Source of the DNA: a virus
Virus record (IMG/VR): IMGVR_UViG_3300021961_000568
Span: 1-25,732 of that record
Direction: 5' to 3' (one strand)
Length of the DNA stretch: 25,732 nucleotides
In this document: one piece after another, positions 23,200 through 24,557 of the stretch
How the letters are laid out: every line of letters begins with the position of its first letter
How positions within the stretch are numbered: the stretch's first letter is position 1
Made by a program: the position numbers and the translations under genes
Notes under the pieces: generated by a model
What the model saw: the letters and a program-made list of their open reading frames with translations, nothing else
Told to the model about the DNA's origin: nothing
Database searches by the model: none

Positions 23200-23619
23200 A
23201 TGACATACACTTGGGGATGGCACCTTTCGCTCGATATGGGCGGGTGTGACAAAGAAAAGATTACCAGCAAAGACAACATCATTGCTTTTGTCAAAGAGCT
23301 TGTAGAAAAAATAGGCATGAAAGCCTATGGAGAGCCAGCGTGTGTTCACTTTGCTGAACACGATGCCAGCAAGGCAGGCTTTACGCTAACTCAGCTTATA
23401 GAAACTTCTAACATCTGTGCACATTTCGTTGACGCTACAGGGGAGGTTTATCTGGACGTGTTCAGTTGTAAACCTTTTAACGAGGAAATTGTCGTTGAAG
23501 TGGCTGGTAACTACTTTAACCCTACGTTTGGGGAAGTCTACATGCGTGAACGGGGTGTTAGCGCTGCCGATTACGAAGAAGTAGACACATATAAAAAGGA
23601 GAATACATGCCTGCACTAG
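23200..23619 (+). CDS. SpeD-like (S-adenosylmethionine decarboxylase family) protein, divergent
   Basis: The 139-residue product has the length and layout of bacterial SpeD proenzymes: GWHLSLDMGGCD near the N-terminus, H54 and G60 in the middle, S70, H75, and DVFSC with C90, and a late ERG. Against the Thermotoga SpeD as I remember it, S70, H75 and C90 match the pyruvoyl-forming Ser63, His68 and Cys83 with no gap. The residue before the cleavage serine is Thr, not Glu. The family members' adenosine contacts (Phe49, Trp70, Glu72) are Ala56, Val77 and Ala79 here. It should self-cleave into two chains and act as a pyruvoyl decarboxylase, but perhaps not on AdoMet. It follows large terminase after one base. 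Confidence 0.82.
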   Translation: MTYTWGWHLSLDMGGCDKEKITSKDNIIAFVKELVEKIGMKAYGEPACVHFAEHDASKAGFTLTQLIETSNICAHFVDATGEVYLDVFSCKPFNEEIVVEVAGNYFNPTFGEVYMRERGVSAADYEEVDTYKKENTCLH

Positions 23620-23789: not shown

Positions 23790-24077
23790 GTAGGCTCTAG
23801 GAGCGTCTAGGAAGCCCGTGGACGGGAGTTTACATACCCTTGGCTACTACCCTAGCCGGGAGAGTAAACGCCTGTCAGCGGGCGTTCAGCAACGCTAAGG
23901 AGCGTTAGAGAGGGTTTGAGGGGGGTTGACAGAATTTTGAGCAAAAATCTGAAAGCCCTAACGTTATCTACGAGTGGTCGCTACCCCCCATGGCCCTCCC
24001 GCAACAGCCACGCTACAGCTTGCATACGGCCAAGCACACGCTTATTCACGTTAAACGATTGATTCTAAACGTTATTT
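23790..24077. other. Non-coding, GC-rich hairpin region after the late genes
   Basis: No gene is evident. Small hairpins are visible: CCCG/CGGG at 23815-23826, ACGCC/GGCGT near 23869-23886, and a perfect 6-bp stem AACGCT/AGCGTT with loop AAGG at 23891-23906. A TTGACA at 23926-23931 has no good -10 partner. Composition shifts from GC-rich to AT-rich around 24030. A genome terminus or packaging site would be expected near here in a T7-like phage. Confidence 0.5.
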
Positions 24078-24100
24078 AACGGATCATTCATCCGTTTTTT
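24078..24100 (+). terminator. Intrinsic terminator at the end of the late transcript
   Basis: AACGGAT and ATCCGTT (24078-24084 and 24090-24096) form a 7-bp stem around a 5-base loop, followed by a run of six T (24095-24100). It is the first T-tailed hairpin after the late genes. A competing stem between CGTTAAA and TTTAACG just upstream could overlap it. Confidence 0.75.
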
Positions 24101-24107
24101 GCACCTA

Positions 24108-24404
24108 AAGCTTGAACGCAAGCATAAGCCGACACAATACAGCCAAGCTTCGACCTAATAGTTAAGCTTGTCTGCTTTTTGTCAGGTATTTTTTACAGTC
24201 AAGCTAACGGTCACGTTTACTTGCACAAGCTTAAGCATACCTAGCAAGCTTAAGCATACCGAGGAAACAGTATAGGTTTCTTATAGTTTAGCTTAAGCTG
24301 CTATATATAAGGAACGCGCGTTCATATATTAGATCAACGATCTTATAGTTAAGCTTACTTTTTTTTATTTTTTTTATAGCTAAGCTTACTACACTGCTAA
24401 GCTT
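24108..24404. repeat. Cluster of AAGCTT-core repeats (iteron-like)
   Basis: AAGCTT occurs at 24108, 24145, 24164, 24227, 24246, 24351, 24382 and 24399, eight times in about 300 bp, often as (TATAG)TTAAGCTTA. A 16-base unit CAAGCTTAAGCATACC is present twice (24226-24241 and 24245-24260). Two neighbouring pairs are spaced exactly 19 bp. The tract is AT-rich, with T-runs at 24359-24376 and palindromes at 24312-24323 (GAACGCGCGTTC) and 24331-24343 (AGATC/GATCT). Confidence 0.85.
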
Positions 24405-24529
24405 CTGAAAAACCTGCATCTTGCACTATAACATACTGAAAACAAACGATTCACAATGACGAATCACCCGTGAAAATAAACTTAACAATAAACACTAACC
24501 TACTGATTTTATTGGTATAAAAAAACAGT
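24405..24529. other. AT-rich non-coding spacer
   Basis: No gene is seen. It contains GCACTATAACAT at 24423-24434, which partly resembles a T7-type promoter core, and a GATTC/GAATC inverted repeat near 24449-24466. Neither is strong enough to name. Confidence 0.45.
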
Positions 24530-24557
24530 TTGACGGGGAAAAAATAATAGATATTCT
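24530..24557 (+). promoter_or_regulatory. Candidate sigma70 promoter
   Basis: TTGACG at 24530-24535 and TATTCT at 24552-24557 are separated by 16 bases in an A-rich context. It is the best host-type promoter I can find in the intergenic region and points toward the rightward genes, matching the place of early promoters in T7-like phages. A start near 24564 would give a leader of about 450 bases. Confidence 0.5.

Follow-up and report, generated by a model that had tools for sequence, protein, structure and literature searches.

An AAGCTT short-repeat array at the predicted concatemer junction of a T7-like marine virus

Eight exact copies of AAGCTT lie within 297 bp of a 25.7-kb linear fragment of a T7-like marine virus, the whole of which was analysed and is called the window here. 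The anatomy of this region is very likely that of a concatemer junction with an SRL-type array, and we consider the array itself to be probably the short-repeat array of a T7-like phage, putatively acting in concatemer processing. It would be a newly found, lineage-specific addition to the SRL-type arrays. That the individual units are binding sites for a protein is a more tentative proposal.

The gene order of the window is T7-like, running through portal, scaffold, capsid, tail tubular proteins, internal virion proteins, a collagen-like fibre, endolysin, holin, TerS and TerL. Next come a SpeD-like protein and a 60-aa ORF; a stretch of about 1.2 kb in which no gene is evident then separates them from a 64-aa ORF and a GP88-family gene (Table 1). 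TerS was identified by a match to profile PF11123, and the names of genes other than TerS, TerL, SpeD-like and GP88 come from reading the ORFs beside annotated Roseobacter phages. TerL matched 2548 phage records by tblastn, the best of them annotated as DNA maturase B, with identities of about 62% to Roseobacter phages, the nearest GenBank relatives, and 51–55% to many other T7-like phages. Seven IMG/VR contigs matched full-length or nearly so, with a TerL identity of 90–91%. Searches of GenBank phages and plasmids gave no close relative, a scan of the genome collection gave no relative of TerL, and Rfam gave no match. The SpeD-like gene directly behind TerL is a predicted S-adenosylmethionine decarboxylase (23200–23619; PF02675, E = 1.4e-18) with relatives at at least 80 virus loci.

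Table 1. Coordinates of the features at and around the predicted junction.
Feature	Position	Strand	Remarks
TerL (T7 gp19-like), 580 aa	21456–23198	+	tblastn; anchors the right genome end
Long imperfect hairpin left of predicted DTR	23811–23887	.	z = -4.5; 0/200 shuffles fold as well
DTR left-edge signature, ATTTTG..AAAAATCTGA-N31-CCCCC	23934–23988	+	Predicted cut after about 23959
Predicted DTR, about 200–225 bp	23960–24175	.	From signature and T/G-rich/T-run element; right edge uncertain, 24160–24185
AAGCTT array, eight cores	24108–24404	.	First three left of T-run element (in or on edge of predicted DTR), five right
Candidate right-edge element, T/G-rich then GGTATTTTTT	24166–24194	+	GGTATTTTTT at 24185–24194; resembles class II phage-RNA-polymerase pause signal
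Degenerate array unit TTATAGTTTAGCTTAAG	24281–24297	+	Full AAGCTT at the matching place in relatives
Perfect 12-bp palindrome GAACGCGCGTTC	24312–24323	.	Opens the most conserved noncoding block (about 24300–24525)
Sigma-70-like promoter candidate TTGACG-16-TATTCT	24530–24557	+	Presumed early promoter; count not above chance in shuffles
First left-end gene, 64 aa	25023–25217	+	ORF with homologues
GP88-family gene	from 25286		PF17338, E = 1.4e-29

The junction was located by the signature at its left edge. T7 carries AAAAATCTGAGTGACTA immediately before its terminal repeat (DTR), and in the window AAAAATCTGA-N31/32-CCCCC has a single exact forward match in the record (23943–23988), 745 nt past the end of TerL and on the same strand. 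AAAAATCTGA followed by CCCC or more at 41–42 nt from its start was found in the window, T7, CRP-125 and most of the environmental relatives tested, and T3 fits the pattern. Variants with one or two bases changed occur in LUZ100 (AAAAATGCGA) and in a Limnohabitans phage (AAAAATCCGA), the latter form also being carried at the left edge of Rhizobium phage Pasto. In each of T7, T3 and Pasto, 17 nt separate the beginning of the A-run from the cut; the annotated start of LUZ100 is 29 nt after the A-run, 12 nt off this rule. At the DTR starts of P-SSP7, Syn5, phiKMV and SP6 the signature is increasingly degenerate, the P-SSP7 variant being ATTTTGGCAGAAATGTCTGAGGTCATA directly at the left edge of a genome whose ends were mapped experimentally (PMC3350473).

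A pattern search of IMG/VR with GAAAAATCTGAG-N30-CCCCC returned 87 contigs versus 3 for the reversed control. Two scans yielded at least 188 signature loci, and among the 188 listed a T7-like TerL lies upstream on the same strand in 160, at a median distance of 574 nt. TerL is on the other strand in 13, and 12 of the 15 others are too short upstream to tell. In the 13 opposite-strand loci (L314, L321, L323, L338, L349, L351, L219, L242, L267, L275, L291, L296 and L301) TerL stands at recurring distances of about 450–550, 1145 or 1640 nt, a pattern that looks like an inversion of the terminase gene with respect to the ends. The exact pattern was absent from CRP-804, CRP-118, L013, L014, L016–L021 and L043, some of which are short, and the records of CRP-118, CRP-125 and CRP-804 contain no terminal repeats and have ends that look arbitrary. 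The sequence GGTCGCTACCCC, found near 23977 and 19257, was considered as a phage RNA polymerase promoter and rejected, since the first copy coincides with the CCCCC element of the DTR signature; a 20-mer search of the rest of the window revealed no repeats resembling promoters.

The DTR itself is a prediction from the left-edge signature and a T/G-rich plus T-run element, rather than a repeat seen in the linear record. ATCTGTT stands at the DTR end in T7, T3, SP6, Syn5 and Pasto. Published work reports it as the class II sequence of concatemer junctions (PMC11617373) and describes maturation and packaging as being set off when the polymerase–lysozyme complex pauses there (PMC3276506). Of 91 distinct signature loci, 16 have ATCTGTT within 500 nt (1.9 expected), 13 of these at 147–215 nt past the cut. 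At the expected right edge the window has no exact ATCTGTT, and GTCTGCTTTTT then GGTATTTTTT is found there instead. Similar GTGT..GGTATTTTTT sequences are present in L002, L006, L007, L008, L010–L012 and L039, and LUZ100 has such an element just right of its annotated DTR end. Since the clade of the window shares the T/G-rich element ending in GGTATTTTTT, and this element is similarly placed in LUZ100, we set the predicted right edge at 24160–24185.

The hairpin lies 70–150 nt left of the predicted DTR and is kept in L002, L005, L006, L007, L008, L010, L012 and L045, with changes on both sides in 6 of 18 consensus pairs. Stem-loops are also found in the corresponding stretch of most relatives and of T7 and T3. 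A hairpin intermediate has been reported for T7 concatemers, and the hairpin of the window may correspond to it.

The eight AAGCTT cores, first noticed in an earlier note, start at 24108, 24145, 24164, 24227, 24246, 24351, 24382 and 24399. The remaining 25.4 kb contains 19 copies, or one per 1.3 kb, within the one per 1–2 kb that the note had estimated. The enrichment test against the whole genome that it proposed, run on the window, bore out the density: the maximum per 300 bp was 8, versus 4 in 300 dinucleotide shuffles of the window, and 2000 shuffles of the array alone gave a maximum of 5 and a mean of 0.72. No 6-mer in the window occurs at more than eight per 300 bp, and only GCAGCA, which is coding, and TTTTTT tie with AAGCTT. 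The described 16-base exact repeat is indeed present, as CAAGCTTAAGCATACC at 24226 and 24245. The statement that several units read TATAGTTAAGCTTA was too generous, as there is one exact copy (24344) and otherwise two with one mismatch (24282 and 24375). Both pairs spaced 19 bp exist, one of them being the 19-bp duplication that carries CAAGCTTAAGCATACC itself. The suggested helical phasing did not hold: spacing is irregular (37, 19, 63, 19, 105, 31 and 17), and the eight positions are not periodic anywhere in the range 9.5–13.5 bp (P = 0.74). The 16-mer TATAGYYAAGCTTACT matched 77 contigs, but a double copy was confined to the two array relatives already known, so single matches elsewhere were taken as chance.

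Measured from the predicted cut, AAGCTT occurs at +148, 185 and 204, left of the T-run element, and at +267, 286, 391, 422 and 439 to its right. The array spans +149 to +445, beginning in the right third of the predicted DTR and extending about 240 bp beyond it, with the third unit on the edge. The earlier note had likened the array to the SRL of T7, and this analogy gained support, since the left-edge signature puts the array across and right of the predicted DTR right edge. In T7, CCTAAAG units (SRL/SRR) surround a terminal repeat of 160 bp; the SRL units lie 175 to 338 from the cut, with CCTAAAG at 175–332 there and also inside the DTR (17, 41 and 60), as the window units are in the predicted DTR, and early promoters follow rightward. 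In contrast to T7, the unit of the window is AAGCTT with a palindromic core, its spacing is irregular rather than about 13 bp, and CCTAAAG is present in the array stretch as a single copy (24104–24110). The window also differs in having no match to SRR left of the DTR, where the one AAGCTT within about 500 bp (23722) lies in a gene.

Arrays of other sequence occupy comparable positions elsewhere. The DTR of Pasto is 271 bp as determined by PhageTerm (PMC8407765), and CACCCATC recurs in its right part (188 and 200) and beyond (290, 300 and 325), next to the AAAAATCCGA form of the signature; the unit sequence differs from that of the window, which also lacks the perfect ATCTGTT found at the right edge of Pasto. 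SP6 has CCTTAGT short repeats right of its DTR (12 CTTAGT in 600 nt), with a different unit and a degenerate A-run signature at the left edge. The sister locus L008 (TerL 85% identical) resembles the window in gene order, signature, T-run element and an AAGCT core common to both units, and its array of about 10 copies of the 13-bp CACAAAGCTATCT starts just right of the T-run element. Unlike those of the window, the L008 units are tandem and not palindromic, and 22-bp and 20-bp repeats lie inside the predicted DTR. The left end of L008 (13230–13460 and 13830–14147) also codes for a protein with an Arm-DNA-binding domain of integrase type and for a regulator of the MarR family, a feature shared with LUZ100 and the CRP phages, which are temperate-like T7 relatives. 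No comparable array was seen in P-SSP7, Syn5, LUZ100, L007, L012 or L024, and arrays are therefore not required for packaging. No relative with sequenced ends carries the AAGCTT array.

Tandem arrays detected by TRF lie within 900 nt at 31 of 81 distinct junctions versus 23 of 557 other windows (P = 7e-17), a contrast that may be inflated because the control windows are mostly coding. Most start 200–400 nt past the cut. A serious rival to the binding-site reading, albeit one we rate as rather unlikely, is that such arrays are by-products without a specific role, in which repeats of arbitrary sequence would arise at the junction through slippage, gene conversion or strand switching as the DTR is duplicated and concatemers are processed. 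This would fit the finding that the unit differs in every lineage (AAGCTT in the window, CACAAAGCTATCT in L008, TGCCCAACTTCC in L037 and L002, CACCAG in the Limnohabitans phage and CACCCATC in Pasto), as well as the 50 of 81 junctions without a TRF array and L007, which manages without one. However, most units of the window are dispersed with differing flanks, an arrangement that tandem slippage does not produce.

The comparison of the same interval in relatives, also proposed in the earlier note, gave a divided answer. The array is kept at four loci (L002, L004, L006 and L034), and L003 ends inside it. It is absent from L007 (TerL 90% and TerS 84% identical), which keeps the signature and left flank and has a different left end and right flank; the array is therefore not indispensable. 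Identity of the window to L002 and L006 is 26–47% at 24056–24255 and 75–90% at 24356–24555, with AAGCTT units in both parts. Despite the low identity of the first part, both relatives keep AAGCTT there with different flanks, and this persistence of the core argues against the by-product explanation. In the three right-hand units that align, AAGCTT follows a T in the window; in L002 those three, like all seven units of that locus, have C before it. This unit-wide difference looks like concerted change, judged from few sequences.

Two further elements were observed in relatives. L002, L004, L006, L034 and L037 have 11–13-bp TGCCCA... tandem repeats inside the predicted DTR, left of AAGCTT, that are absent in the window. 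An element around GCGC(N)CGTTCAT(A/C)ATA (24310–24330 in the window) was found by eye right of the T-run element in L008, L010, L011, L024, L039 and L045; its carriers include sister phages that have the AAGCTT array as well as others that lack it.

The palindromic AAGCTT core could also bind a phage regulator, such as the MarR-type protein of the clade, and so form an operator controlling the presumed early promoter near 24530. The promoter candidate, which follows the array, is kept in L002 and reads TTTACA-16-TATTCT in L006, and the left-end region of L008 includes a gene for a MarR_2 protein (PF12802). We nevertheless regard an operator as improbable: the units stop 126 bp upstream of the -35 element without overlapping the promoter, and three of them fall within the predicted DTR or at its edge, so that copies would sit at both genome ends. 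L008 has the MarR gene, yet its 13-bp units are not palindromic. In LUZ100, moreover, MarR sites have been proposed near the RNA polymerase promoter and not at the genome end (PMC10134795). Motifs of the CGAATCACCC and TAACCTACTGATTT types occur near the presumed early promoter (24460–24515 in the window) and, by eye, recur right of the junction in L012, L045 and L186.

A replication origin, with iterons beside an AT-rich unwinding element, is the least probable of the readings considered and in our view very unlikely. Direct repeats and a palindrome are close together here, and an AT-rich stretch with two T-tracts (24358–24378) lies between units. Against this, T7-type phages initiate replication at phage RNA polymerase promoters, with the primary origin internal near gene 1; the units lack helical phasing, a look through the ORFs of the window, which is part of a genome, turned up no initiator gene, and the array sits where T7, SP6 and Pasto have their junction repeats. 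The earlier note had offered an origin or an operator as further possibilities, and nothing was found that points specifically to either.

Returning to an SRL-type array acting at the junction, we read the window as running from TerL at the right genome end through the hairpin and the DTR left-edge cut to a DTR of about 200 bp, and on to the left end with its presumed early promoter and early genes. RNA polymerase would pause at the DTR right edge, where terminase would be recruited. The AAGCTT units would provide multi-copy sites for a phage protein working at the junction during concatemer cutting and DTR duplication. Sequence comparison supports the junction, the left-edge signature, the array position and the recurrence of arrays in other T7-like phages; the exact right edge of the DTR, protein binding and any processing role are steps that we infer. 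A further conjecture, which we think unlikely to hold as it stands, is that the unit of each T7-like lineage is read by its own junction-binding protein, with the array co-evolving while the AAAAATCTGAG-N30-CCCCC cut signature stays fixed across the family.

The terminal short repeats of T7 have been familiar ever since its genome sequence became available, and no stated function for SRL/SRR was found in the literature searched. Lineage-specific recognition, if true, would give the T7 SRL repeats a testable function. With short arrays near or right of the terminal repeat at 31 of 81 junctions, the T7 repeats appear as one case of a common, lineage-specific feature. Since physical ends are usually hidden in circular or fragmentary assemblies, the left-edge signature may also offer a route to predicting those of uncultured T7-like phages from sequence alone.
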